Assembly: GCA_013298895.1 (NCBI GenBank)
Contig: JAAFJM010000004.1
Location: 124,001 to 188,000, forward strand
Length of the DNA stretch: 64,000 nucleotides
Direction of reading: 5' to 3'
Origin: Bacteroidota bacterium
Lineage (GTDB): Bacteria > Bacteroidota > Bacteroidia > UKL13-3
Shown here: one piece after another, positions 4,330 through 29,683 of the stretch
Position numbering within the stretch: the stretch's first letter is position 1
Layout of the letters: each line of letters opens with the position of its first letter
Notes under the pieces: model-generated
Told to the model about the DNA's origin: nothing
The model's input: the letters and a program-made list of their open reading frames with translations, nothing else
Databases searched by the model: none
Program-made: the position numbers and the translations under genes

Positions 4330-5679
4330 TTACGATTCTCTGTTAACATCCCATTGTTCCATATAGTCGGCTACTCTTCTTAAAAAACTTCCGCCTAAAG
4401 AACCATCTACTACCCTATGATCGTAACTTAATGATAAAAACATCATATGACGAATAGCTATTACATCACCAAATTCAGTTTCCATAACAGCAGGTTTCTT
4501 TTTAACAACGCCAGTAGCCATAATAGCAACTTGTGGTTGGTTGATAATAGGTGTTCCCATTACATTTCCAAATCCACCAACATTTGTTAAAGTAAATGTA
4601 CCTCCTTGTATATCATCAGGTTTTAATTGGTTTGCCCTTGCTCTGTTGGCCAAATCATTTACTTGTTTGGTAATTCCAATTAAGTTCATGGTATCGGCAT
4701 TTTTTATTACTGGAACAATTAAATTACCACTTGGTAAAGCAGCAGCCATTCCAATGTTGATTGCTTTTTTCTTGATAATATTAGTACCATCTACACTGCA
4801 ATTAATCATTGGGAAATCTTTAATAGCACGTGCCACGCACTCAATAAACAATGGAGTAAATGTAATTTTTTCACCTTCACGTTTTTCAAATGCTTTTTTG
4901 TTTTTCTCGCGCCATAAAACCATATTGGTTACATCAGCTTCTACAAAGCTAGTAACGTGTGGACTGGTGTGCTTACTCATTACCATATGGTCAGCAATAA
5001 GTTTACGCATGCGGTCCATTTCTATAATTTCATCGCCACCGCTAACACTTGGAGCAGCTTTAGGCGCAGCAGGTGCTGTAGGTTTTGGAGCTTCTACTTT
5101 CGCTTCAACTATTTGTGCAGGAATAGCTGCTGGAGTGCTAGTAACCGCAGGTGCAGAAACAGTTCCATTTGTTCTATTGCTAACATAGTTTAAAATATCG
5201 CGTTTGGTTACACGTCCTTCATTACCGGTTCCACCTATTGTTTCTAACTCAGCCATGCTTACGTTTTCTTCTCGAGCTATGTTTAATACCAACGGACTAT
5301 AAAATTTATTGCTTCCAGCATTAGCTGCAGGTGCAGCAGTGTTTACAGCATGTTGAACTGTAGCTTCTATTTGAGTTACCACTTTAGGTGTTTCTACCAC
5401 AGGCGCGGCAGGAGCACTTGGCGTTGCGCCAGCAGTTCCTTCTAGTTCTAAAATAGCAATTGGCATATTTACAGCCACTACATCGCCATCGTTGTATAAT
5501 TTCTTTTTCAAAATACCAGCCTTTGGGCTTGGTACTTCGCTATCTACTTTATCGGTAGCTATTTCTAATACAGTTTCATCGGCAGCAATGGCATCACCTT
5601 CGTTTTTTAGCCATTTAATAATGGTTGCTTCGGCAATACTTTCGCCCATTTTAGGCATTACTAGTTGAAATTCGGCCAT
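4330..5679 (-). CDS. Dihydrolipoamide acyltransferase, E2 of a 2-oxoacid dehydrogenase complex
   Basis: A 449-residue E2 subunit that carries acyl groups on lipoyl-lysine and transfers them to CoA. Domains in order: one lipoyl domain (residues 1-80) with lipoylated Lys44 in EIATDKVDSE; an Ala/Pro/Thr-rich linker; a peripheral-subunit-binding domain (about 128-165); a second Ala/Pro linker; and the catalytic domain (about 215-449) with the active-site motif DHRVVDG (His421, Asp425). One lipoyl domain and this length fit branched-chain or 2-oxoglutarate E2 better than the multi-lipoyl pyruvate type; the substrate cannot be fixed. No E1 or E3 gene is adjacent, so it is encoded apart from its partners. 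Confidence 0.92.
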   Translation of the reverse strand: MAEFQLVMPKMGESIAEATIIKWLKNEGDAIAADETVLEIATDKVDSEVPSPKAGILKKKLYNDGDVVAVNMPIAILELEGTAGATPSAPAAPVVETPKVVTQIEATVQHAVNTAAPAANAGSNKFYSPLVLNIAREENVSMAELETIGGTGNEGRVTKRDILNYVSNRTNGTVSAPAVTSTPAAIPAQIVEAKVEAPKPTAPAAPKAAPSVSGGDEIIEMDRMRKLIADHMVMSKHTSPHVTSFVEADVTNMVLWREKNKKAFEKREGEKITFTPLFIECVARAIKDFPMINCSVDGTNIIKKKAINIGMAAALPSGNLIVPVIKNADTMNLIGITKQVNDLANRARANQLKPDDIQGGTFTLTNVGGFGNVMGTPIINQPQVAIMATGVVKKKPAVMETEFGDVIAIRHMMFLSLSYDHRVVDGSLGGSFLRRVADYMEQWDVNRES

Positions 5680-15564: not shown

Positions 15565-15652
15565 CAGTGTTGATTTACAAAAACAATCGAAATGTATGGT
15601 CAACAACAAGTTCAATATATTATTTCATTTAAAAAACAAAAAAACAACACGT

Positions 15653-15994
15653 ATGAACAACTTAAGAAACAGCATCCGCTTAATTGGTAATTTAGGTCAA
15701 AACCCAGAAGTGAAAGAAACAGCAAATGGCAAAAAGTTAGCTAAATTTAGCATAGCCACTAACGAAAGCTACCGCGATGAAAATGGCAAAGAAGTAAAAG
15801 AAACCATGTGGCATAACCTAGTAATTTGGGGCAAGCAAGCCGATACAGTGGCGAAATATTTAAAGAAAGGTAGTGAGGTAGCTATTGAAGGCAAACTAAG
15901 CAACCGCAACTACACAGATAAGGATGGGATTAAACGTTATGTAACCGAAATAGTGGTAAATGAATTTGTAATGCTTGGAGGTAAAAATAACTAG
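15653..15994 (+). CDS. ssb: Single-stranded DNA-binding protein, copy 1
   Basis: A 113-residue SSB that coats single-stranded DNA in replication, repair or recombination. The OB fold is recognisable from NSIRLIGNLGQNPEVKETANGKKLAKFSIA (read as two parts), ETMWHNLVIWGKQAD and GKLSNRNYTDKDG. It ends at VMLGGKNN right after the fold, without the long flexible linker and acidic C-terminal tip with which most bacterial SSBs recruit partner proteins. I chose the ATG at 15653 because the other two copies start there; an in-frame ATG at 15596 lies in the leader. It is the first of three near-identical tandem copies. Confidence 0.93.
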   Translation: MNNLRNSIRLIGNLGQNPEVKETANGKKLAKFSIATNESYRDENGKEVKETMWHNLVIWGKQADTVAKYLKKGSEVAIEGKLSNRNYTDKDGIKRYVTEIVVNEFVMLGGKNN

Positions 15995-16060
15995 TAATAA
16001 TAGAAAGTATAAAGTAATTATTTAAGTATAAAATCAAATTTTTAAAAAACAAAAACACGT

Positions 16061-16402
16061 ATGAACAACTTAAGAAACAGCATCCGCTTAATTGGCAATT
16101 TAGGTCAAAATCCAGAAGTAAAAGAAACAGCAAATGGCAAAAAGTTAGCTAAATTTAGCATAGCCACCAACGAAAGCTACCGCGATGAAAATGGCAAAGA
16201 AGTAAAAGAAACCATGTGGCATAACTTAATAATTTGGGGCAAGCAAGCCGACACAGTAGCCAAATATTTAAAGAAAGGTAGCGAAGTAGCTATAGAAGGT
16301 AAAATAAGCAACCGTAACTATACCGATAAGGATGGAATAAAACGTTATGTAACCGAAATAGTAGTAAACGAATTTGTTATGCTTGGAGGTAAAAACAACT
16401 AG
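16061..16402 (+). CDS. ssb: Single-stranded DNA-binding protein, copy 2
   Basis: The second of three tandem copies, 113 residues, differing from copy 1 at only a couple of positions (LIIWG for LVIWG, GKISNRN for GKLSNRN) and with the same end, VMLGGKNN. DNA differences between the copies are mostly at silent codon positions, which suggests the proteins are held under purifying selection after duplication. Like its siblings it is an OB fold only, with no acidic tail. The 66-base spacer before it repeats the leader of copy 3, so each copy may carry its own ribosome-binding region. Recent tandem duplication is the simplest explanation; an assembly artefact is unlikely given the scattered differences. 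Confidence 0.93.
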   Translation: MNNLRNSIRLIGNLGQNPEVKETANGKKLAKFSIATNESYRDENGKEVKETMWHNLIIWGKQADTVAKYLKKGSEVAIEGKISNRNYTDKDGIKRYVTEIVVNEFVMLGGKNN

Positions 16403-16470
16403 TAATAACAGAAAGTATAAAGTAATTAATTAAGTATAAAATCAAATTTTTAAAAAACAAAACAACACGT

Positions 16471-16812
16471 ATGAACAACTTAAGAAACAGCATCCGCTTA
16501 ATTGGCAATTTAGGCCAAAACCCAGAAGTTAAAGAAACAGCAAATGGCAAAAAGTTAGCTAAATTTAGCATAGCCACCAACGAAAGCTACCGCGATGAAA
16601 ATGGCAAAGAAGTAAAAGAAACCATGTGGCATAATTTAATAATTTGGGGCAAACAAGCAGATACTGTAGCCAAATATTTAAAGAAAGGCAGCGAAGTAGC
16701 CATTGAAGGCAAACTAAGCAACCGTAACTACACAGATAAGGATGGCATTAAACGTTATGTAACCGAAATAGTAGTAAATGAGTTTTTGATGCTTGGTGGT
16801 AAAGCCGATTAA
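16471..16812 (+). CDS. ssb: Single-stranded DNA-binding protein, copy 3
   Basis: The third tandem copy, 113 residues, with the most distinct end (FLMLGGKAD instead of FVMLGGKNN). The OB-fold core is otherwise the same and again lacks the acidic C-terminal tip. The array ends after this gene with a strong terminator at 16837-16877, so the three are likely one transcript. With no acidic tip these proteins could only act as plain DNA-coating proteins, or as partners of a full-length SSB elsewhere in the genome. Proximity to a Y1 transposase, an enzyme class that uses single-stranded DNA, is suggestive but not evidence of a shared role. Confidence 0.93.
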   Translation: MNNLRNSIRLIGNLGQNPEVKETANGKKLAKFSIATNESYRDENGKEVKETMWHNLIIWGKQADTVAKYLKKGSEVAIEGKLSNRNYTDKDGIKRYVTEIVVNEFLMLGGKAD

Positions 16813-16946: not shown

Positions 16947-18884
16947 ATGAGACTTAAATTACTTTGCTTATTCATATTAATTTTCAATAGCACATTTGCG
17001 CAAAGTAATTTAATTGATTCGTTTGTAAAATTAAATACCACCGGAGAAAGAATAAAATTTCTTTCAAATGATAATGTTACCAATCTAGGTAAAAACGGTT
17101 GTTATGTGCTTAAAACAGAATTACAAAAAATTGGAGATGATAAGGCATTGTTTTTTTTGTGTGTTAGAATAAATGATTTTTTTATTTTAGATGCAAAGGA
17201 ACTGAAAATAAATACTGATTTAATGTTTGACATTTCGAAAAGAAACAACTTTAATGCAGAATTATTGGTTGCAAATTTTAAATCAACGATAAATCTTTAT
17301 GGAGGGAATCAAATCTCTGAACAAGAAGCATATTATCGATATCTAAATATTTTTGAAGGAATTAAAAATACAGATTTAAATTGTTTTACTAATTATGGTT
17401 TAGAAGGGATACTTTACGAGATAGGACGTAATTTTTACGAAGTGGGCGATTATGAAAAGGCTTTAGAGTGTTTGTTGTTACAAGAAAAAAAAGCAAAAAT
17501 TCGAAATATTTTTTACATACTCTCATTGAACTTAATAGAGTCAATTTATGCCAAACAAAAACAATATAATCTATCAATGATTTATGCCTATAAAATTTAC
17601 AAATTTTCGAGTAATAATAAGAACATTTCAAATCTTCAAATTTGGCAAAGCAACTTTTGGAGTGGTTTTTCTGCTTTGAATATTGCAAAATATGCACAAA
17701 ATTTAGGAAAACATAAAATTTGTTCACACTATCTCTCCATAGGTGAAAAGCTTTCTATCAAAAATACTGATTTAAAAAATATACCCATGTTAGTAAGCGA
17801 GTTTGATGCGCTGCAAACAATAATTCAGATAAAGTTAAGTAACAAACAACTTCCCGAAGCTGAAAAACTGTTAAATCGATCGTTATATTTAACAAATATT
17901 ATTGTAAAAGAGGGTTCAAATATTCATTTTAAGCCGCTTGAATTCTATAAAAACAATGTTTCATTTTATGAGTCAAAAGGAAATTTTAGTGAAGCATATA
18001 AATATTTAAAAACAGTAAATCAAATAGAAGATAGCCTAAACATTAGAAATGATAAAAGAAAACTTTGGCAATCGGAAATGAAAGTTAAATCGGAAGTGTT
18101 TAACGAAAAACTAAAAACCATTCAAGATGATAATGCACTTGGAACCAATACTAGAAATGCAATTATTTTAAGCCTTTTTGTATTACTAGCCATTGCTTTT
18201 ATTGTTTACCAAAAAATAAAAAAAGACAATAAAGTTATTGAAAAACAGAAAAATTTATTAGAACAATCCTTACTCGAAAAAGAGGTGCTATTAAAAGAAT
18301 TGCACCATAGGGTAAAAAACAATTTGCAAATTATTTCGGGTTTGTTTGAAAAACAAATAAATAAAACCGATGACCCAAAAGTAAAACAACTCATTAAAGA
18401 AGCGCAGGATAGGATATTTTCAATTGCTTTGGTTCATCAAAATTTACATCAATCAGAATTATTAAACGGAGTGCAGTTTAACAATTACCTTAACTTATTG
18501 GTTAAAAACATAGTGGATACTAATAATTTAGAAGAAAAATCTTTAGAAATTATTACTAAAGTTGATGATTTTATAATGAATTTTGACCATGCCATATCGG
18601 TAGCACTCATTGTTAATGAGTTAATAACAAACTGTTATAAACATGCATTTGTAAACAGAAGTGAAGGCAAAATAGAAATAAATTGTTCGTTACAGGAACA
18701 AAAAGTTTATTTAAGTGTATGCGATAATGGCATTGGTTTTTCAACCAATGAGGGTGATTATGCTAATAAAACTTTAGGTATGGGCCTGTTAAAAGGCTTA
18801 GCCCGACAAATAAAAGGAATAGTTAATATTACAAGTAATGAAAAAGGTACTTGTGTTCAAATAATTTTCGATTTTAAAAATTAA
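16947..18884 (+). CDS. Sensor histidine kinase, HisKA_2 type
   Basis: A 645-residue membrane sensor kinase. Signal peptide to FAQ (residue 19); a helical sensor region (about 25-385) that looks TPR-like; one membrane helix near 403-421 (AIILSLFVLLAIAFIVY); a short coiled coil; then the HisKA_2 box LLKELHHRVKNNLQIISG with the phospho-accepting His at 453-454. The HATPase domain has ALIVNELITNCYKHAF (N box), CDNGIGF and GMGLLKGLARQ. This TPR-TM-HisKA_2 layout is common in Bacteroidota and usually pairs with a LytTR regulator. The partner gene starts five bases downstream, so the pair is one operon and the signal is probably periplasmic. Confidence 0.9.
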   Translation: MRLKLLCLFILIFNSTFAQSNLIDSFVKLNTTGERIKFLSNDNVTNLGKNGCYVLKTELQKIGDDKALFFLCVRINDFFILDAKELKINTDLMFDISKRNNFNAELLVANFKSTINLYGGNQISEQEAYYRYLNIFEGIKNTDLNCFTNYGLEGILYEIGRNFYEVGDYEKALECLLLQEKKAKIRNIFYILSLNLIESIYAKQKQYNLSMIYAYKIYKFSSNNKNISNLQIWQSNFWSGFSALNIAKYAQNLGKHKICSHYLSIGEKLSIKNTDLKNIPMLVSEFDALQTIIQIKLSNKQLPEAEKLLNRSLYLTNIIVKEGSNIHFKPLEFYKNNVSFYESKGNFSEAYKYLKTVNQIEDSLNIRNDKRKLWQSEMKVKSEVFNEKLKTIQDDNALGTNTRNAIILSLFVLLAIAFIVYQKIKKDNKVIEKQKNLLEQSLLEKEVLLKELHHRVKNNLQIISGLFEKQINKTDDPKVKQLIKEAQDRIFSIALVHQNLHQSELLNGVQFNNYLNLLVKNIVDTNNLEEKSLEIITKVDDFIMNFDHAISVALIVNELITNCYKHAFVNRSEGKIEINCSLQEQKVYLSVCDNGIGFSTNEGDYANKTLGMGLLKGLARQIKGIVNITSNEKGTCVQIIFDFKN

Positions 18885-18889
18885 ATATT

Positions 18890-19636
18890 ATGGATAATAA
18901 TTTAAGAATATTAATAGTTGAAGATGAATTTATAACACTCGATTTATTAAAGGATTATGTTATTGAATTAGGTTATCATGTATCGGGAGATGCAATAAAT
19001 GCGGAAGAAGCCATATCAGTTCTTGAAAAAAATGAAACTGATTTAGTATTATTAGATATAAACCTAAGTAAGGAAAAAGATGGAATTTGGATTGCTGAAC
19101 AAATAAATACTAAATACAAAATTCCGTTTATTTTTATTTCGGCATATAGCGATGCTGAAACCATTAAAAAGGCAGCTTTTTGGCATCCATCAGCTTATTT
19201 AGTAAAACCTGTTAAAAAAATAGATATTTATACAGCTATAGAAGTAGCCATTAAAAACTATACGAAGTATGTCCCCAATAAAAACAGTGAAAATAGGATT
19301 GAAGAAGATGAATTAATGCCCATCGAGAATCATTTATTTATAAAAATTAACTCCAATTATAAAAAAATAATTATTTCAGAAATTCTATATTTCGAATCGT
19401 TTAAGAATTATATTGAAATACAACTTCAAAACGAAAAAATTATTGTTAGACACACTCTACAAAAGTTTTTAGAACTACTCCCTCAAAACAATTTCATTCA
19501 AGTTCATCGGTCGTTTGTGGTTAACAAAAAGTATATATCTGAAATAAAAACCAATAGCATTATAATTTTGGAAACCGAGATTCCAATAAGCAAAAAGAAC
19601 AAAGAAAATTTGCTAAATAGTCTCAAAATAAAATAA
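18890..19636 (+). CDS. LytTR-family response regulator
   Basis: A 248-residue regulator: a receiver domain (1-120) with phospho-acceptor Asp56 in LVLLDINLS, the acidic pair Glu11-Asp12 and the conserved Lys in YLVKPVKK; then a LytTR DNA-binding domain (about 145-245) with ILYFESFKNYIEI and NNFIQVHRSFVVNKKYI. LytTR proteins bind pairs of ~9-base direct repeats about two helical turns apart. Two GTCCC repeats exactly 21 bp apart lie just downstream (19642-19675), in front of the surface gene operon, so this regulator very likely controls those genes. The upstream kinase is its expected partner. Confidence 0.93.
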   Translation: MDNNLRILIVEDEFITLDLLKDYVIELGYHVSGDAINAEEAISVLEKNETDLVLLDINLSKEKDGIWIAEQINTKYKIPFIFISAYSDAETIKKAAFWHPSAYLVKPVKKIDIYTAIEVAIKNYTKYVPNKNSENRIEEDELMPIENHLFIKINSNYKKIIISEILYFESFKNYIEIQLQNEKIIVRHTLQKFLELLPQNNFIQVHRSFVVNKKYISEIKTNSIIILETEIPISKKNKENLLNSLKIK

Positions 19637-19641
19637 ATAAA

Positions 19642-19675
19642 GTTTCTGTCCCTTAATAATAATGTTTCGTCCCAA
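19642..19675 (+). promoter_or_regulatory. Candidate LytTR operator (two direct repeats, 21-bp period)
   Basis: GTTTCTGTCCC and GTTTCGTCCC; the GTCCC cores are at 19648-19652 and 19669-19673, exactly 21 bp apart and so on the same DNA face. The site lies 30-60 bases upstream of the likely -7 box of the next operon, a good activator position. Confidence 0.6.
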
Positions 19676-19701: not shown

Positions 19702-19710
19702 TATTCTTTG
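19702..19710 (+). promoter_or_regulatory. Putative -7 box of the surface operon
   Basis: TATTCTTTG resembles TAnnTTTG with one extra base between TA and TTTG, nine bases before the start codon region. A weak core promoter would fit activation from the LytTR site upstream. Confidence 0.4.
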
Positions 19711-19719
19711 TAAAAAATT

Positions 19720-21483
19720 ATGAAGAAATTTATACTCCAACATATTTATACTTTTTATAAAAACACACAATTAATTGTAGTTTTTCCTATCATTTTATTT
19801 AGTTTTTTATATGTTAATGTATATGGACAAGATTCTAAGTCAAAAAGTAAGTTTAAAGTTACCGGAGGGATAAATTTATCACAAGATTTTTTCCTTTACC
19901 AATCGAATGATACATTATATAGGCCTTATAGGCCAAAATCGTTTACTCGTATTGCTGCATATACTACGTTTTCTTATGGTAAATTTTCTCTTCCATTCTC
20001 TTTTTCTTATATTCTACAACAAAAAGGGAGTGAAAGTATTAATAGTCCTATTCCTTCCAATTTTAATTTAAGAGATTTACTTAACAATTATAATCAATTA
20101 TCATTTAGCCCTACTTTTGGAAAACTTCAAATAAATTTAGGAACACAAGTTCCCAAATATTCAGAATTATCATGTGGCGATTTACCTATATTTGGAGTTG
20201 GATTTGATTGGAAACCAAAAAGATTTAGGGCTGCTGCATTTTATGGAATTTCGCAAAGAGGCATTAGTAGCGATTCTATTAATAGAGTAGTTGGTTCCTA
20301 TCAACGAACTTCATTTGGTGGAAAATTAGGTGTAGGAGAAGAAGAGAAATCGCATTTTTACATCAATTTAGTAAAACACGATGATATTGTAAATTCGGCT
20401 ACGGTAAATTCACCAGGCGTTCTACCACAAGAAAATGTTGTTGTTTCAGTTGAAAATAAATTGGTTTTTTTTAAAAAGTTTTTTATTAAGAGTGAATTAG
20501 GGCTTTCTGCTTATTCAAATAATTTAAAAGTTGCTACGTTAGAATCTGATTCATTTACTTTAACCATCAATCCAATAATAAAAAGCCTATTTAAACCACG
20601 ATTTACAAGTAGTTATGGAGCAGCTTTTGTTGGTTCGTTTGGTTATAAAGGAACCTACTGGGGTTTTACCACTTTAGGAAAGGCTTATTCGCCCGAATAT
20701 AGAACATTGAGTTATCCATTTTTTCAAAGCGACCGATTAGAATGGTTAGTAGAACCTTATTTTATTTTATTTAAAAGTAAGGTGTCTTTAAATGGTTCAA
20801 TAGGTGTAAGAAAAGACAATTTTTTTGCAAAAAAATTGTCTGTAAACACGCAAACCATTGGGTCTGCCAATTTAACTTTAATGCCAACCTCCAATTGGAT
20901 AATTAACTTGATGTATGCTAATTTTGGAATGCAAAACAATGTAACTAATGATACAATAAGAATTCAAAATGTGTTTAGTAGTTATGGAATAAATACAAGT
21001 TATACTATTCTTCGAAAAAAATTTAACCATGTAATTATGTTTTCATTTTTCAAAAATGAGTTCGAAGACTTTAATATAGTGAGTGGTAATTTTTCAAATA
21101 ATATAACCACAACTACCACTTTAGGCTATTCACTTAATTTTTTAAAAATTCCGCTTACCCTTTCCACTTCTGGCACTATAGCCGAAAATATTATATACTT
21201 GGGCACACTTAAAATTAACATGGCTTCAATTAATGCTAGCTATGTTTTAGGGAAAAGTAAGAAAGCCAATATTGGTTTAGGTTTAAATATAATTCAAACC
21301 AAACAAATAGAAGGCACGCCTAACTTTAATTTTACAAACACCTTAACTTTATCTTACAAACTGGCCAAAAAATTGAACATTGGAACCAACGCTACGGTAA
21401 ATTTACTTAGGTATGGCAGTATTAAACCTGGCATTGCCAATACTGAAAGTTCAATCAGGTTATTTGCAAATTACACATTTTAA
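19720..21483 (+). CDS. Outer-membrane beta-barrel protein (surface operon gene 1)
   Basis: A 587-residue protein I do not recognise by name. A signal sequence ends near YVNVYGQ (about residue 37). The rest is a run of amphipathic strands with aromatic girdles and short turns (GKFSLPFSFSYIL, KFNHVIMFSFF, TNTLTLSYKL), and it ends in ...SIRLFANYTF. A terminal Phe on an amphipathic strand is the classic outer-membrane barrel signal for the BAM machinery. There are no plug, OmpA or CTD motifs. It opens a four-gene operon (27, 6 and 7 bases between genes) just downstream of the LytTR regulator and could be the pore or anchor for the giant secreted protein that follows. Confidence 0.7.
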   Translation: MKKFILQHIYTFYKNTQLIVVFPIILFSFLYVNVYGQDSKSKSKFKVTGGINLSQDFFLYQSNDTLYRPYRPKSFTRIAAYTTFSYGKFSLPFSFSYILQQKGSESINSPIPSNFNLRDLLNNYNQLSFSPTFGKLQINLGTQVPKYSELSCGDLPIFGVGFDWKPKRFRAAAFYGISQRGISSDSINRVVGSYQRTSFGGKLGVGEEEKSHFYINLVKHDDIVNSATVNSPGVLPQENVVVSVENKLVFFKKFFIKSELGLSAYSNNLKVATLESDSFTLTINPIIKSLFKPRFTSSYGAAFVGSFGYKGTYWGFTTLGKAYSPEYRTLSYPFFQSDRLEWLVEPYFILFKSKVSLNGSIGVRKDNFFAKKLSVNTQTIGSANLTLMPTSNWIINLMYANFGMQNNVTNDTIRIQNVFSSYGINTSYTILRKKFNHVIMFSFFKNEFEDFNIVSGNFSNNITTTTTLGYSLNFLKIPLTLSTSGTIAENIIYLGTLKINMASINASYVLGKSKKANIGLGLNIIQTKQIEGTPNFNFTNTLTLSYKLAKKLNIGTNATVNLLRYGSIKPGIANTESSIRLFANYTF

Positions 21484-21510: not shown

Positions 21511-24500
21511 ATGATATTTTCAATAAAACACAATAAAGGATTCAAATTATTAATTTTTTTAATATTACTTTCTAACAGTTTTCTCTTAACTAGTTTGTAT
21601 GCTCAGTCTCCAACGTTTACAATGACAATGCAAGCTTATCCGCCAACGCGACCATCAGATTGGCTAAACGCTCCTCAACCAATTACCATTACCGTTATGA
21701 ATAATAATTCTAGTATAGACCCTTTAAAACTTCTTGTTACAGTTAAAAAAGGAGATAAAGTGGCTATTAAAACTAAATTAGAGAATGTTACTGAATTTTA
21801 TTTAATTCCGGGTGCTAATAGTATAAATTTATATGATATTTGGGGTCAAGGATCTTTTGAAATTGACAATTCATTAATTGATATTACAAGTGGGAAATTA
21901 CTTCCTGCATCTCCTTTCTCACAACCTGCTTCACAATATGATATATGTGTTGAGTTGTTTGAAGATAAAGGCTTAGGCTATATAAAAATAGGGCAATCTA
22001 TTTGTAGAACATTTTATGTTGCTCAACCAAATGAACCAATTGCTAATTTGCCTAACGAAATTAACCAATTTACACCTACTACTATAACACCAATTAACTT
22101 TTCATGGAGCCCTGTTTCAAATACTGATGATTTTGTAAAATATCAGTTAGAAGTATTTGAAATTGACCAAGGAACTTCAACAGCTGTACAAATACTTAAT
22201 AAAGTACCTATATTTACTGTTGAAACTTCCAATATTCCAAACTATACATGGACAGAAGCAACAGTAAAATTTAATCAAAGAAAAATAAATGGGGTTATTT
22301 CTTATAGGTATGCATGGCGAGTTAAAGCAGTAACTTTTGAAGGTCTTCCAATTGGAAAAAACGAGGGCTTAAACAAGGGATATTCTAATATAAATGAATT
22401 TTATATATTAGATAGACCTAGTTCAACAAACATTGTTACTACCCCTAATTCTGGAACCAATACTCCATTGAAAGAAGAAGAACCAGAGCCTATAAACTTA
22501 ATTGACAATGATAAAATTAATGGCAGTGACGCCCTAAAAGAAGGAATTGAATTTAGATGGAGCCGTTTAAAAAATTCTACAGGATCCGTAAGATATCAAT
22601 TAATAATCTTCGATGAAAATAAAACTGAAATTTTTACAAAAGAAGAAACTTTTGATAATAGTTTCATATGGAATCCTACGCTTAAAGATGTATCTTGGAG
22701 CGAAGAAAAAGTATTTAATTGGGTAATTTATGCATACAAATCCAGAAATAGATATGATAAAAAAAGAATTCCTTTAGGAAGTAAAATTGAACCAAAAAGA
22801 CCCATAAAATATAAGGGTACAGGATATTCTGATTTTGGTAAATTTACCTTTACTACATTAACACAAAAAGAAGCGGTAATTACCCTTCCAATTAACAATG
22901 GCACTGCAACTTATGATAATGAAAAAAAAGGAATTGAATTTTCTTGGGAACAAGTTTGGCCTAAAAAAGTAAATCAATCAGTAATGTATAAGTTGGATGT
23001 TTACAAAAGTAAAAACAAAAAAAAAGATGGTAACTCTATTTTTACAACTACCATAATAGATACAAACTTTTTTATGTGGAACAAACAAGATTTAGCTGTA
23101 GGAGATTATGTTTGTGAAATTACTTCTGCTATAACACCTGTCCAAGGTAGTACGACAATACAACTAATTGGAATAAAAACTGGTAATAGCAAAGGAATAT
23201 CTAATTTAAGTTTTTTCACTTTCACTAAAGAAAAAGTAGATTCAATTGAATATACTAATTGCGATGGCACAAAAAAATATATCACAAATAAGGGAATTAA
23301 TAAATCAGCTTCGGTTACCGATTTTAAAAACAAGTTTGTAAAAGTAAATGAATTTACAATGCTTATAAAAGAAGCAAGTGGAGCGGCAAGCAGTTTAAAT
23401 GGTACTGGTTCTATTGTTGTTCCATGGTTAAGAACACCAATTGCTGTTGAGTTTGAAGGTTTAAACATTGATGTTATGGATATGAAACTTACTAATGGAG
23501 AAATTTATGCCAAAACAGATGAAAATGGGGCGGATATACCCAAATTTTTAAAAACAAAAGAAGGTAAAAATATAACAAAAAATTCTGCAAATGAATTAAA
23601 TAAAAAATTAAAATCCAAAGCTAACACCAAGTTAGTTGCTAACCTAGATTTAGACCAAAATACCAGTAAAATTAATACTTCCGAATCCCCTTCGCTTCCA
23701 TTAGGAATTAATAATTTGTTGGGTTACACCATTGCCATTACCGAAATGCAGTTTAATGCTTTTAAAAATAAACTAGTTGGTGTAGCTATTTTACCATTTT
23801 CAAAAGACCAAAAAGATGATATCATTTCATTTGCTGCAACTGATATTGAATTTGGTTTAAATTCTCCATCAAAAGCAGGAGGTAAATTGGTCCTTTTAGA
23901 GGATTTTGCAGTAGTTGATTCAGGCGAAAGTAGTTATGGAGTTTATTTTAAAGCTAAAAATAAAGAAAATCAACCTACTACTTTTATTGAATGGGACTGC
24001 AAAGGTTTTAAAAATTTGAAAACTACTGTTGATGTAGTTTTACCTAAAAAATGGGCAAAAGCAGTTAAAGATGAAAATGATAAATCAACCGAAGAGCGCG
24101 TAACAGCAACAGCAGAAGCTGATATAACCAAACTAAATGATTGGCTATTAACCCTAAGTATCAAGCCATGTGAAATACAAGGATTAGATGGAGTGGAACT
24201 AGCAGTAGATAATCTAACACTTGATTATTCTGATACTAAAAATATTCCAGGAATGAAATTCCCTTCGAATTATACAGGTATTAAAGGAGTAGATTTTAAA
24301 GGGTTTTATTTACAAAGTGGGAAATTCACTTTACCTAAATTCTACAATAAATCAACTGATACAACGGGTATTGAAATAGAAATGAAGGAGTTTATTATTA
24401 ACAAACAGGGTATAACGGGTCAATTAGCAATAGGCAGTGAAACAGCTCCAATTATAAACTTAGAAAGTGGAACCATAGGCGATTTTCAGGCAAGTTTAGA

Positions 24501-26988
24501 TAAAATAGAAATAGCCATTGTAAGCAATTCTATTACCAAAGCAAGTATAGATGGAAAAATGGTACTACCTATTTCAAACAACACCCCAGAAGAACCAAAT
24601 ACTTTAAAATACAATGCTTCTTGGTTAACCCAAACTGCTACGTCAGGTGCTAAAATTAAAGTAAATATTACCGTAGCAGACAATGTAAAAATTAAAACAT
24701 CATTGCTCGATGGTGCAGAATTAGTGTTAAATAATACATCTACAATATCATTAACATATACCAAAGGAAAAACAAGAAAAGCAAAAGGTAAAAATGAAGC
24801 AATAGTAAATTTAAATGGAAATTTTAACATTCAGAAAAAAGTTAAAGATATACCATTGAGTTTTAGTATGGCTTTTACTAATATTGGTTTTAATTACAAC
24901 GATTCTTTAAAAAAGAAGTTTACATTTATAAAACCCACTTTTAGTTTTGCTAGTCCGCAAAAAAAAGCAAATGGTTTTCCGGTTACTTTTACCAATGTAG
25001 CGTTTGAAGACGAAGCCCTTGCTCCTAATTCCCAATATATAGCCGCTGCTTCTGTAAAATTTGATGTTATGCTTGATCTTAATGATAAAATAAGTGGCAA
25101 AACTAGCATCGCAATTAAAGGAGGAATAAAAAAAGTAGGAAGTAAATATATACCAGAGTTTATTGATGCTAGTATTGGTGCCATTAGTGTTGATGCCAAT
25201 TTAACTGCTGTAAAATTAAAAGGATCAGTAGCACTTTATAGCAACGATGCCGTATATGGCAATGGTTTTATGGGTAATGTAGATGCAACTTTTACTAAAG
25301 TAAGTACTCAGGTTAAAGCTTCATTAAGGTTTGGATCAGCAAAAAAAGAAAATAGTACCGAGGAATATACCTATTGGTTTGCACAAGCCAAAATAATGTT
25401 GGCTAAAGCAATTCCATTATCTGGCCCCATTGGCCTTAAAGGCGGTGGATTGGCTGCATGGTATAATATGAGAATGAGCGACACTTCAAGACTAGATGCA
25501 GACACAGTGGCAAATGCCAAAATCGATGTAAATGAAACTTTATCGGGTAGTAAATTTGTGCCAGATAGTAGAGTTAGCCTTGGTTTTAATATAATGGCAA
25601 TATTAGTAAACAATGCATCTGATAGGGTCTTTAATGGCGATGCTGCTATTAGCGCTCAATTTACCGATGCTGAAGGCATAAGTTTTTTACGTTTTAATGG
25701 AAGTACTTTTGTTGGCTCTCCAATTGTAGAAAGGGAAAAAGCTCCAATAAAAGGATTCATGGTAGTTAATTACGACTTTGTTAAAGAATTGTTCGACTTA
25801 AATGTTAAAGTGGATATTCGCAACCCCGTTGCTGGGCCAGCTTTGTTTCAAACAAGGGAGCCAGCTACTTTAAATTTATTTGTTGATAGTAAAAATAAAA
25901 CACCACAAGGAGAACCCAAATGGCAACTAACAGTTGGTACACCCGAAGTGCCAAATAAGTTTAAACTTTATGAAGTTTTAAACACTTGGTCGTATTTTAG
26001 AGCAGGTAATAATTTGGTTACAAATAACAATTTCCAACCAACTACAGTAACAGAACTTACTAAAATTGATGCATCATTTGCGGCTTTAGCAAAACCAGAA
26101 CCTATTTCGGCAAACGCAACGGGAGGAAAAGGATTTGACTTTGGATTAGGCTTTAATGGAAATGGTAATGTTAGTTTTGGGCCCTTTAAAGGTGGTTATA
26201 GTGTTGGTGCTGAAATTAATTTAGCCATGGCTCAATATGATGCTACAGAATGTGTATCAAGCGATTTTAATTATTGGTATGCACGGGGTGGAATAGCCGC
26301 CTGGGCAAGTGCTTATGTGAGTTTTAAGTCTTTATTGAATGCTGAGCTAAAAGCTGCGGCTGCTATGAAAGCGGGCGGACCAAAGCCACTTTGGGCTACA
26401 GGAAGAGTTGCAGGACAAATAGTTGTAAAAATACTTTTTATCAAGTTTAACTTTAGGGCCAATGTACCGTTTACTTACGGTACCATTTGCAAACCTGTTA
26501 ATTCTGCTATTAACAAAGACAATATGAATTATATTGGCGACTTAGATATGAATGGTTTTCTTGAAGTACAAGATGAGTACGCAATGTATAATAGTTCAGA
26601 TAGGGTAGATAGGCTGACTCCTTTACAACTTGGTTCATATTTCGATTTGTCGAAAGAGTTTAACATAGAATTTACTGAAAATGACGTAGTTGTTACAAAA
26701 ACTTTTAAAGTTAATTTAAACTATTTTGTTAGCGTTGCTGGAGTATCCGGTTTTAACTATTATCCACATATAATGCAAGTTTTACCTAATGATATTTATT
26801 GGATTGGTACTCAATGGGTTGATGGGCAAGCAAGAGGCCAATTTCCTTACAATAAGACTATAACTTATTATTTTGAAGGTACATTACAAGAAAAAGTAAA
26901 TGATAAATGGGTTTATTTTTTAGATAAAAATGGGGCGCTAATTAGGAAAGTAACACCACAAAAATCATTTACAACTAATAAAAACTAA
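21511..26988 (+). CDS. Giant secreted protein, 1825 residues, TANFOR/Fn3-like front (surface operon gene 2)
   Basis: Signal peptide to LYAQ (residue 32). Residues ~33-170 (FTMTMQAYPPTRPSDW...) resemble the N-terminal region of TANFOR-domain proteins. Three Fn3-like repeats follow at about 173-310, 329-455 and 455-585, each with a Trp-rich core (INFSWSPVSN, IEFRWSRLKN, IEFSWEQVW). Residues ~590-1400 are a long beta-rich array of loosely repeating strands without known motifs. The C-terminal ~400 residues are Gly/Ala-rich (GFDFGLGFNGNGNVSFGPF) and end in NKN without a T9SS sorting domain. So it is exported but may not use type IX secretion; the barrel next door is a candidate exit or anchor. 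The TANFOR resemblance is by eye. Confidence 0.65.
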   Translation: MIFSIKHNKGFKLLIFLILLSNSFLLTSLYAQSPTFTMTMQAYPPTRPSDWLNAPQPITITVMNNNSSIDPLKLLVTVKKGDKVAIKTKLENVTEFYLIPGANSINLYDIWGQGSFEIDNSLIDITSGKLLPASPFSQPASQYDICVELFEDKGLGYIKIGQSICRTFYVAQPNEPIANLPNEINQFTPTTITPINFSWSPVSNTDDFVKYQLEVFEIDQGTSTAVQILNKVPIFTVETSNIPNYTWTEATVKFNQRKINGVISYRYAWRVKAVTFEGLPIGKNEGLNKGYSNINEFYILDRPSSTNIVTTPNSGTNTPLKEEEPEPINLIDNDKINGSDALKEGIEFRWSRLKNSTGSVRYQLIIFDENKTEIFTKEETFDNSFIWNPTLKDVSWSEEKVFNWVIYAYKSRNRYDKKRIPLGSKIEPKRPIKYKGTGYSDFGKFTFTTLTQKEAVITLPINNGTATYDNEKKGIEFSWEQVWPKKVNQSVMYKLDVYKSKNKKKDGNSIFTTTIIDTNFFMWNKQDLAVGDYVCEITSAITPVQGSTTIQLIGIKTGNSKGISNLSFFTFTKEKVDSIEYTNCDGTKKYITNKGINKSASVTDFKNKFVKVNEFTMLIKEASGAASSLNGTGSIVVPWLRTPIAVEFEGLNIDVMDMKLTNGEIYAKTDENGADIPKFLKTKEGKNITKNSANELNKKLKSKANTKLVANLDLDQNTSKINTSESPSLPLGINNLLGYTIAITEMQFNAFKNKLVGVAILPFSKDQKDDIISFAATDIEFGLNSPSKAGGKLVLLEDFAVVDSGESSYGVYFKAKNKENQPTTFIEWDCKGFKNLKTTVDVVLPKKWAKAVKDENDKSTEERVTATAEADITKLNDWLLTLSIKPCEIQGLDGVELAVDNLTLDYSDTKNIPGMKFPSNYTGIKGVDFKGFYLQSGKFTLPKFYNKSTDTTGIEIEMKEFIINKQGITGQLAIGSETAPIINLESGTIGDFQASLDKIEIAIVSNSITKASIDGKMVLPISNNTPEEPNTLKYNASWLTQTATSGAKIKVNITVADNVKIKTSLLDGAELVLNNTSTISLTYTKGKTRKAKGKNEAIVNLNGNFNIQKKVKDIPLSFSMAFTNIGFNYNDSLKKKFTFIKPTFSFASPQKKANGFPVTFTNVAFEDEALAPNSQYIAAASVKFDVMLDLNDKISGKTSIAIKGGIKKVGSKYIPEFIDASIGAISVDANLTAVKLKGSVALYSNDAVYGNGFMGNVDATFTKVSTQVKASLRFGSAKKENSTEEYTYWFAQAKIMLAKAIPLSGPIGLKGGGLAAWYNMRMSDTSRLDADTVANAKIDVNETLSGSKFVPDSRVSLGFNIMAILVNNASDRVFNGDAAISAQFTDAEGISFLRFNGSTFVGSPIVEREKAPIKGFMVVNYDFVKELFDLNVKVDIRNPVAGPALFQTREPATLNLFVDSKNKTPQGEPKWQLTVGTPEVPNKFKLYEVLNTWSYFRAGNNLVTNNNFQPTTVTELTKIDASFAALAKPEPISANATGGKGFDFGLGFNGNGNVSFGPFKGGYSVGAEINLAMAQYDATECVSSDFNYWYARGGIAAWASAYVSFKSLLNAELKAAAAMKAGGPKPLWATGRVAGQIVVKILFIKFNFRANVPFTYGTICKPVNSAINKDNMNYIGDLDMNGFLEVQDEYAMYNSSDRVDRLTPLQLGSYFDLSKEFNIEFTENDVVVTKTFKVNLNYFVSVAGVSGFNYYPHIMQVLPNDIYWIGTQWVDGQARGQFPYNKTITYYFEGTLQEKVNDKWVYFLDKNGALIRKVTPQKSFTTNKN

Positions 26989-26994
26989 TAGAAT

Positions 26995-29145
26995 ATGAAA
27001 ATATTTAAATTTTTACCAATAAAAATAATAAATCTTGCGCTATTTTTAATAGTAGGGAATTTCGCCATTGCACAAGAAAAAACTGCTTCAAAAATTGGGT
27101 TAGCTGCACAAAACAGTGCTGATAGCATTACACTTCGCTGGTTGGTTGATAGCTACGAATTGTTTAAGGAGGGAATAAAAATGGGCTATACCATTAAAAG
27201 AGCTGAAGAAATAAAAACTAATAAATACAGTAAATATGAAGCAGTAGCTACTATAAAACCTTGGACAAAGGCAGATTGGAAAGCACGGTTAAATATGCTT
27301 AAAGATACAGCTTCAAAAGAGTTTAAGAACTTTTCAGCAGGGTATGAATTGGTAATTGATTATGCCAAAAACTTACCAAAAGATGTTTCAGGTTTTGAAG
27401 CCATAACAATGGCTAAAGCACAAAACGATATGTCATTTTTATTTATAACTATTGCTTCTTGTAGCGATGTTCAAACAGCAAATGCAATGGGTTTGCGCTG
27501 GGTAGATAAAAATGTAGTTGCAGGCAAAAAATACAAATACACTATTGATTTAGCAAATAATCAAAACAGGTTTAAAATAGAAGTAAAAGAAGCTGAAGCA
27601 CAAGCCATACAAAGTAATAATGGGCCACTTGTTTCTATTGCCAAAGCCGAAAATGAAACCAGTATTGGGTTTAAATGGATGCTTGGTGATCAGCCAATTT
27701 TAGGTTATAGCTTAGAGCGTTCAGTAAATAATGGACAAACATTTGTTAGATTAAACAAGCAAATTATTTTAATAGACAATGAAGAAGATGCAAATGGCAA
27801 AAGCATTGGTTCATTATCTGATACTAGCGTGGTAATGTATGTACCATATGTTTATAGAATTATAGGGCATACCATTTTTGCGGATGAAGTAGTAATAGGA
27901 AATGTAAATGCCATGGCAAGAGATAGAACTCCAGTAACTTGTATTTTTGTTCCAAACCCAGAACCAACTGACATTCAGTATTCCACTGTAAAATGGGAAC
28001 TAACCTGCAAACCATCTGACTTGAAAGGATTTAACATTAGAAGAGATAATAAAAAAGATGGAAAGTTTTTAACTAAGCTAAATACAAATTTGCTGAGCCC
28101 TAATATTAATGAATACAATGACAATGATTTTGATACCACAATAAATAACTTTTATTTAATAGAAACCATTGATACAGCTGGTAACATTTTTCGTTCAAAT
28201 GCTGTATCTTTATTATTTATTGATGTGGTACCACCTTCAATTCCTTTATGGGCTAACGGAACAGTTGATTCGAACGGAATAGTAAAAATAAAACTTAACT
28301 TAAATAAAGAAAAGGATTTTATGGGATACAGGATTTTTAAAGCCAATCAATTAGACCATGAATTTTCTGTAATTAAAGAAAGTTTTACCAAAAACGACAC
28401 GATTTTTATTACTGGTAAAGACAGTATTTTTATAGATACCATTAGTTTAAATTCATTAACACCAAATGTTTATTACAAAGCAACAGCTTTAGATTTTCAT
28501 TTCAATGAATCAACATTTTCATTACCGCTAAAAATTGTATTACCTGATACTATTAAACCGGTTCCACCTGTTCCTTTAAAAATAGATATGTCTGATTCCT
28601 CATTAAATATCCATTTTACACCAAGTAGCAGTGCTGATGCAGTTAAAACAATCATTCTTAGAAGATTTAAGAATGATTTAAACTGGGATATATTAGATAC
28701 AGTAAAAACGACACAAAAAATGTATTTAGACACCAATTTGTATTCAGAAATAGTTTATGAGTATTGCTTGCAAGCTATTGATACCAATGGCTTGCTTTCC
28801 CCATTGTCTTTTTCAATTCCAGGTCGTGTTTATCCTAAGAGTATAGCACCTTCAGTTACTAATTTACAAGGCATATACGAAGCTGATATTCAAAAAGTAC
28901 TTCTTACTTGGAATCATGAAATGGCAGAAAAAATTCCAGGTATAAAATTAGCTTTTCAAGTATATAAGTCAGCTAACAATGAGCCGCCTTCTCGAATAAC
29001 AACAATACCTTTTACTGCAAATGAATTTTATTATTATGACCCTGAAATAAAAAGCAAAGAGACAATTAAATATTTTGTAAAAGTAGTATTGGAATCAGGA
29101 GCAGAATCAGTTTTAAACAATCCAGCAATAGTTAATATACCATAA
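26995..29145 (+). CDS. Secreted fibronectin-III-like protein (surface operon gene 3)
   Basis: A 716-residue protein with a signal peptide to AIAQ (residue 27) and no T9SS sorting domain. After a helical N-terminal region (to ~200, with a duplicated-looking LRWLVDSYELF and LRWVDKNVVAG pair) come at least four Fn3-like units of ~95 residues, recognisable from GYSLERSVNNG, GFNIRRDNKKDG, GYRIFKANQLDH and AFQVYKSANNE, each followed by Tyr-Xaa-Tyr strands such as VYRIIG. Fn3 units commonly mediate contact between surface proteins or with ligands. It starts six bases after the giant gene, so the two are made together and may bind each other. Function unknown. Confidence 0.7.
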   Translation: MKIFKFLPIKIINLALFLIVGNFAIAQEKTASKIGLAAQNSADSITLRWLVDSYELFKEGIKMGYTIKRAEEIKTNKYSKYEAVATIKPWTKADWKARLNMLKDTASKEFKNFSAGYELVIDYAKNLPKDVSGFEAITMAKAQNDMSFLFITIASCSDVQTANAMGLRWVDKNVVAGKKYKYTIDLANNQNRFKIEVKEAEAQAIQSNNGPLVSIAKAENETSIGFKWMLGDQPILGYSLERSVNNGQTFVRLNKQIILIDNEEDANGKSIGSLSDTSVVMYVPYVYRIIGHTIFADEVVIGNVNAMARDRTPVTCIFVPNPEPTDIQYSTVKWELTCKPSDLKGFNIRRDNKKDGKFLTKLNTNLLSPNINEYNDNDFDTTINNFYLIETIDTAGNIFRSNAVSLLFIDVVPPSIPLWANGTVDSNGIVKIKLNLNKEKDFMGYRIFKANQLDHEFSVIKESFTKNDTIFITGKDSIFIDTISLNSLTPNVYYKATALDFHFNESTFSLPLKIVLPDTIKPVPPVPLKIDMSDSSLNIHFTPSSSADAVKTIILRRFKNDLNWDILDTVKTTQKMYLDTNLYSEIVYEYCLQAIDTNGLLSPLSFSIPGRVYPKSIAPSVTNLQGIYEADIQKVLLTWNHEMAEKIPGIKLAFQVYKSANNEPPSRITTIPFTANEFYYYDPEIKSKETIKYFVKVVLESGAESVLNNPAIVNIP

Positions 29146-29152
29146 AAATAAT

Positions 29153-29683
29153 ATGAAAACAACAATTTTAAAAACAACGCTGCTTTTTTTAGTCATAGCG
29201 GCATTAGGTTGTAGCAAGGAAATAGGTAAACTGAATATCAATAGACAATTTGAAAGTAAAATATATATTGATAGTACCAAAGCTGGAGAAATATTTGATT
29301 CTCTTTACACAGTTAAAATTTCTGAAATAAAAACCATTATTCAAGAAAAAGGTTCTGGGAATATAGATTTACAAAACTTATATCTGAAAAGTATTTCATT
29401 CCAAATACCTGATACCTTTAATTATACATTTAGTGATATTGAATCTTGTGTAATAATTTTAGATAATGATACCATTGCAACATTGCCTACTAATGCAAGT
29501 GGTAAAAGTTTTGATCTTACAATACCTTCCCAAAAATTGCAAGATAATTTTAAGGTGTATTATGAACAAAATAAAGATATAACTTTTAAAAGTTATATAA
29601 AGGCAAAAAATAACATACCTCAATCGCATATAATTGCTACAACTGAGTTTAACATTAAGGCTGATATACTTATTTCAAAATAG
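29153..29683 (+). CDS. Small lipoprotein (surface operon gene 4)
   Basis: A 176-residue predicted lipoprotein. The signal peptide ends in the lipobox AALGC (Cys20), so the mature protein is lipid-anchored, probably in the outer membrane. The mature part is a compact mixed alpha/beta domain: a charged helix (KAGEIFDSLYTVKISEIKTII), then strands such as LKSISFQIPD and SCVIILDNDTIATL, and a final strand TEFNIKADILISK. I recognise no family. It is the last gene of the operon, seven bases after the Fn3 gene, and is followed by a strong terminator. Small lipoproteins at the end of such operons often help assembly or retention of the larger secreted partner; that is inference. Confidence 0.65.
   Translation: MKTTILKTTLLFLVIAALGCSKEIGKLNINRQFESKIYIDSTKAGEIFDSLYTVKISEIKTIIQEKGSGNIDLQNLYLKSISFQIPDTFNYTFSDIESCVIILDNDTIATLPTNASGKSFDLTIPSQKLQDNFKVYYEQNKDITFKSYIKAKNNIPQSHIIATTEFNIKADILISK

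Follow-up and report, generated by a model that had tools for sequence, protein, structure and literature searches.

A predicted paired-repeat LytTR operator between a HisKA_2/LytTR two-component system and an outer-membrane barrel/surface-protein operon of a Bacteroidota bacterium

In the 64,000-nucleotide stretch of Bacteroidota DNA analysed here (the window), a pair of direct repeats with GTCCC cores lies in the 83-bp gap between the gene of a LytTR response regulator and an operon encoding an outer-membrane barrel and secreted surface proteins. The pair is predicted, with a probability of roughly 0.85, to be the operator by which the adjacent HisKA_2/LytTR system controls this operon. It is very probably the regulator's site because both its spacing and its distance to the promoter are kept at the matching locus in distant relatives. 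Judged from the sequence, the arrangement very probably represents a familiar kind of switch that uses a new DNA word.

Gene Neighbourhood of the Repeat Pair

The features of the locus are as follows.

16947..18884, + strand: sensor histidine kinase, 645 aa (Pfam HisKA_2, 3.6e-24, and HATPase_c)
18890..19636, + strand: LytTR response regulator, 248 aa (Pfam Response_reg PF00072, 3.5e-18; LytTR PF04397, 6.7e-19)
19642..19652, + strand: putative operator repeat 1, GTTTCTGTCCC, core GTCCC at 19648-19652
19664..19673, + strand: putative operator repeat 2, GTTTCGTCCC, core GTCCC at 19669-19673
19702..19710, + strand: putative -7 promoter element, TATTCTTTG, TTTG at 19707-19710; position kept in three families
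19720..21483, + strand: operon gene 1, outer-membrane beta-barrel, 587 aa, about 24 strands (AlphaFold2, mean pLDDT 81.9)
21511..26988, + strand: operon gene 2, secreted surface protein, 1825 aa; homologues adjoin barrel homologues in several genomes
26995..29145, + strand: operon gene 3, secreted protein, 716 aa; homologues adjoin gene 2 homologues; fibronectin-like repeats by eye
29153..29683, + strand: likely operon gene 4, probable lipoprotein, 176 aa; 7-bp gap from gene 3; lipobox-like start by eye

The original prediction that the gene directly upstream of the repeats encodes a LytTR regulator was borne out by the two Pfam matches, a receiver domain being followed by a C-terminal LytTR DNA-binding domain. 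Residues D12, D56 and K106, among them the phosphoacceptor aspartate and the conserved lysine, are invariant across 11 sequences (alignment A3). In the kinase, a signal peptide, a TPR-like sensor region and one transmembrane segment were recognized by eye from the sequence. Directly 5' of the kinase gene (15596-16812) are three near-identical tandem genes (132, 113 and 113 aa) whose products were judged by eye to be single-stranded-DNA-binding-like.

The product of the first operon gene has no Pfam or NCBIfam match, and its structural model confidently indicates an outer-membrane barrel. The best coverage among PDB entries was given by MtrB (6r2q_B; Z 18.8, rmsd 5.0, 445 residues), a resemblance that is read only as that of a large porin-like barrel, a general porin/MtrB likeness from which no function is inferred. 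The 1825-aa and 716-aa proteins co-occur with the barrel in several genomes; neither matched a curated family above the cut-off, the weak Pfam matches below it being taken as chance, and no family match was found for the 176-aa probable lipoprotein.

The Repeat Pair and the Putative Promoter

As originally predicted, a two-copy LytTR-like repeat is present between the regulator gene and the surface-protein operon, and its GTCCC cores start 21 bp apart, at 19648 and 19669, a pitch of two helical turns. The repeats are direct, 11 and 10 nt long, with a spacer of 11 nt, and thus have each feature of the LytTR operator format. An extra T in repeat 1 widens the pitch of the GTTTC halves to 22 bp. 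The prediction also placed the repeats 30-60 bases before a putative -7 box, and the cores indeed lie about 33-58 bp 5' of TTTG, the second ending about 33 bp before it. With the Bacteroidota -7 consensus being TAnnTTTG (PMC7366714), the spacer within TATTCTTTG is one base longer; the -7 of the window promoter is poor, and a clear -33 element is lacking.

Matches to the half-site GTTTCN{0,2}GTCCC number two in the window against 0.15 expected, a value that none of 100 shuffles reached. Six occur genome-wide, and the four outside the pair are isolated and, judged from their surroundings, in coding sequence. The spaced pair GTCCC-N16-GTCCC has a single match in the 3.6-Mb genome (the genome-wide tests in the window's genome were done by pattern search). 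Since about 0.5 would be expected anywhere in the genome by base composition, by our estimate, the mere presence of the pair does not settle the matter; what does is where it lies and that it is conserved.

Conservation at Orthologous Loci

Genome G317, of another family, carries what is a clear orthologue of the whole locus by sequence and gene order, with identities to the window of 38.6% for the kinase, 47.6% for the regulator, 48.9% for the barrel and about 30% for the big protein. One pattern scan of 84,980 species genomes revealed no orthologues closer than G317, and only G317 (locus L233) has the regulator. Its gap between regulator and barrel reads GTCCCAAGTGAGTTTCCATTTGTCCCAA, in which GTCCCAA recurs at a 21-bp pitch. 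GTCCC-N16-GTCCC has only two matches in the 4 Mb of that genome, and hence the chance of a pair falling in the 202-bp gap is about 5e-5.

The strongest further case is G331, whose regulator is 37% identical to that of the window. Its kinase and regulator genes diverge from the barrel gene, and the intervening region bears GTCCC pairs with a 20-bp pitch at both ends, one toward the barrel (L221:5513 and 5533) and one toward the kinase (GGGAC at 5231 and 5211). This arrangement suggests that the kinase-regulator operon of G331 may be autoregulated. No 21-bp pair was found upstream of the window kinase or of the G317 kinase, and there is accordingly no sign of autoregulation in the window.

The distance from the second core to TCTTTG is 31 bp in the window and 32 bp in both G317 and G331. 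The composite pattern GTCCC-N15..16-GTCCC-N31..34-TTTG has exactly one match in each of the three genomes (G000, that of the window, G317 and G331), always directly before the barrel, and its reverse has none in them. Among 395 class genomes the pattern has 38 matches, and a barrel follows those of the window, G317 and G331; the others are mostly in coding sequence or in tandem runs of GTCCC. Since these same sites served to tune the pattern, this uniqueness is a measure of specificity and not a blind prediction or independent discovery. The absence of the pair before orthologous operons, one of the outcomes that would have refuted the original prediction, was thus not what was encountered: core, pitch and -7 distance recur in G317 and G331, once per genome. 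The GTTTC(n)GTCCC pair foreseen for such operons was upheld for GTCCC, at 21, 21 and 20 bp in the window, G317 and G331, but not for GTTTC, which is less conserved, and the core of the putative site is therefore GTCCC. This core is common to only these two other genomes, the remaining members of the genus lacking either the adjacency or the pair.

Two further sites were observed. At L266 (G405:C1:496488), one of the few intergenic composite matches away from barrels, a GTCCC pair with a 20-bp pitch and a TTTG at matching distance lies between the gene of a membrane-bound, receiver-less LytTR-like protein and the next gene. At L010 of G006 (same genus), one lone copy of TTTCGTCCCAAAT, the same sequence as repeat 2 of the window, occurs at 2275 on the reverse-complemented locus, just 3' of the gene of a LytTR regulator with 39% identity.

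Distribution of Barrels and Their Local Regulators

A barrel profile (alignment A1) was searched in the 395 class genomes and four families; a homologue is present in 92 of the 395, and about 90 distinct upstream regions were inspected. A LytTR regulator lies directly upstream in the same direction in the window, G038, G317, G310, G118, G154, G332, G464, G457 and G458, and divergently in G331, as spotted with a profile built before the orientation of some loci was corrected. About 80 of the 90 barrel homologues are without an adjoining LytTR gene, and the LytTR link is thus not general for the barrel operon.

Response regulators whose tails resemble NarL/LuxR occur near or directly before barrel operons, in the place of LytTR, at L134, L178, L141, L168, L132 and L076, that of L178 not being the ORF nearest to the operon; at L073, this place near the operon is taken by a LuxR-like protein of 605 aa. 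It may be noted in passing that the local regulator of homologous barrel operons appears to have been swapped repeatedly.

In a tree of 38 regulators, those of the window, G317 and G331, the loci with GTCCC, form one clade (support 94/93), such that the core motif matches a single regulator clade. The regulators of G118 and G310 belong to a separate LytTR clade; in G118, G154 and G332 the regulator follows a 1045-aa ORF. From the well-supported branches it follows that the barrel neighbour was gained or lost no fewer than three times, and hence that LytTR control of the barrel operon was acquired, or given up, repeatedly.

Changing Letters at a Fixed Pitch

Repeats of other sequence occupy the gaps at other loci with LytTR before the barrel: TTCGTAACA twice in G464, TCGTTTA twice in G038 and CCACCTGT twice in G310, each at a 21-bp pitch, and ACCACCTAT/ACCACTTGT/ACCACTTAT at 20- and 21-bp pitch in G118. 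The gaps of G457 and G458 and of the high-GC loci G154 and G332 contain no clear-cut 21-bp pair. Summed over the ten gaps with LytTR before the barrel, self-similarity peaks at lag 21 (85; next 71, mean 63; lags 9-45, stretch length 12); in 1000 dinucleotide-preserving shuffles, no lag ever attained this value. The peak persists when the window is left out, and with one gap per lineage. For 79 barrel upstream regions without LytTR directly upstream, no comparable lag-21 excess was found (529 vs. a mean of 512, reached by 5% of shuffles); their lag-20 excess comes mainly from L155, L159 and L209, the remainder being A/T-rich pairs. At LytTR regulators away from barrels, lag 21 is again the top, but weakly (99 vs. 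96).

Similar repeats were seen elsewhere. Just 3' of a related LytTR regulator gene at L012 (G042), CGTTCACCC/CGTTCACTT form three copies at 21- and 20-bp pitch, the downstream gene encoding a secreted protein and not a barrel. At L155 (G239, of the same genus as G042), two copies of CCGTTCACTCGG with a 20-bp pitch precede a barrel that has no LytTR neighbour, hinting at control in trans. At L008 (G021), CATTTCATCCCT / CATTTTATCACT are 21 bp apart after a LytTR regulator gene and before a secreted-protein gene, the best lag of this gap being 21.

Given the types of local regulator near barrel operons (two separate LytTR clades, NarL-type and TPR-LuxR), we lean slightly toward the view that the operon of barrel and giant surface protein has been captured repeatedly by differing local regulators, and that, where LytTR is involved, a change of regulator has altered the operator letters and left the 20-21-bp pitch untouched.

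Comparison with Known LytTR Systems

The YpdB/yhjX, BtsR/btsT, AgrA P2/P3, ComE and PlnC operators are, like the window pair, two direct repeats upstream of the core promoter of the target, and the pitch of about 21 bp is also shared. To our knowledge, GTTTC(T)GTCCC is not among the cores described for these operators. Nearly all published LytTR sites consist of two direct repeats of 9-11 nt separated by an 11-13-nt spacer, with no shared consensus (PMC4847170). The window operator differs from the known ones in its Bacteroidota promoter, with a -7 TTTG, and in its target, an outer-membrane barrel/surface-protein operon.

The regulator had been likened to the AgrA/ComE type. The LytTR DNA-binding domain and the paired direct repeats are indeed common to the window system and to AgrCA and ComDE, whose kinases are of the HPK10 type, whereas the window kinase matches HisKA_2/HWE_HK (Pfam), is not an HPK10-type membrane kinase akin to AgrC or ComD, and has a TPR-like sensor; the comparison therefore holds for the DNA-binding domain and the operator format only. 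No pheromone precursor gene was found among the ORFs of at least 80 aa around the system. Likeness to the BtsSR-like LytS/LytTR systems is confined to the G118 and G310 loci, outside the clade of the window; their ACCACYTRT-like repeats at 20-21 bp resemble what we take to be the BtsR consensus.

Alternative Explanations

That the repeats arose by chance in an AT-rich gap is scarcely credible. About half a GTCCC-N16-GTCCC is expected per such genome, and a reader working by eye can pick a motif of his own, but the recurrence of the pair at this position in two further families, improbable as it is in the G317 gap, the double pair of G331 and the results with the composite pattern refute this explanation in our view. 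The pair is flanked by two codirectional genes, as would suit an element acting in RNA, whether in the 3' untranslated region of the regulator transcript or in the leader of the barrel transcript; this reading is nevertheless very improbable. In G331 the pair has no regulator gene before it and pairs face both divergent genes, an arrangement that argues against an element in the mRNA of the regulator; it is the distance to the -7 TTTG, downstream of the pair, that is conserved; and no convincing hairpin spans the repeats, nor does any of the inverted repeats listed have long arms flanking them at hairpin distance.

It is also improbable, if less so, that the pair is the site of another transcription factor acting on the operon in place of the neighbouring LytTR protein. 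It is true that LytTR is absent beside most barrel operons, with NarL- or LuxR-type regulators taking its place in some, but the GTCCC core tracks one regulator clade, the G331 pair also faces the kinase-regulator operon, and direct repeats at 20-21 bp are the LytTR format, found in gaps beside LytTR genes and not before the control barrels. Repression by the same regulator from the same operator, with LytTR domains by the -33 region blocking RNA polymerase until a signal frees them, is the likeliest of these alternatives, though still unlikely. The proximal core is near enough to the promoter to interfere, and the sequence does not dictate the sign of control; against this, the weak TA half of the -7 and the lack of a TTTG near -33 are as expected of activator-dependent promoters, and the LytTR regulator YpdB activates from sites of this kind (PMC4847170).

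Proposed Mechanism and Significance

For the preferred reading, in which the adjacent regulator acts through the repeat pair, we infer binding of the pair by this regulator, driven by phosphorylation, and activation of the operon. On a signal, the kinase would autophosphorylate and pass the phosphoryl group to D56 of the regulator. Two LytTR domains would then occupy the two GTCCC half-sites, arranged head to tail along the same DNA face; the promoter-proximal one of the cores, about 33 bp 5' of TTTG, would lie beside the place where a -33 element would be. At this promoter, with its poor -7 and without a clear -33, the bound regulator would recruit RNA polymerase, and the barrel and its partner surface proteins would be expressed; activation by the phosphorylated regulator is the most likely outcome.

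A limited literature search (titles and abstracts) yielded no described LytTR operator from the Bacteroidota. The finding gives an operon without any family annotation a specific, testable switch, and the regulator/operator sets of G000, G317, G331, G464, G038, G118 and G310 permit a comparison of how LytTR half-sites are read at one pitch. If the barrel operon has indeed been captured repeatedly, the series would provide a natural set for reading the LytTR recognition code.
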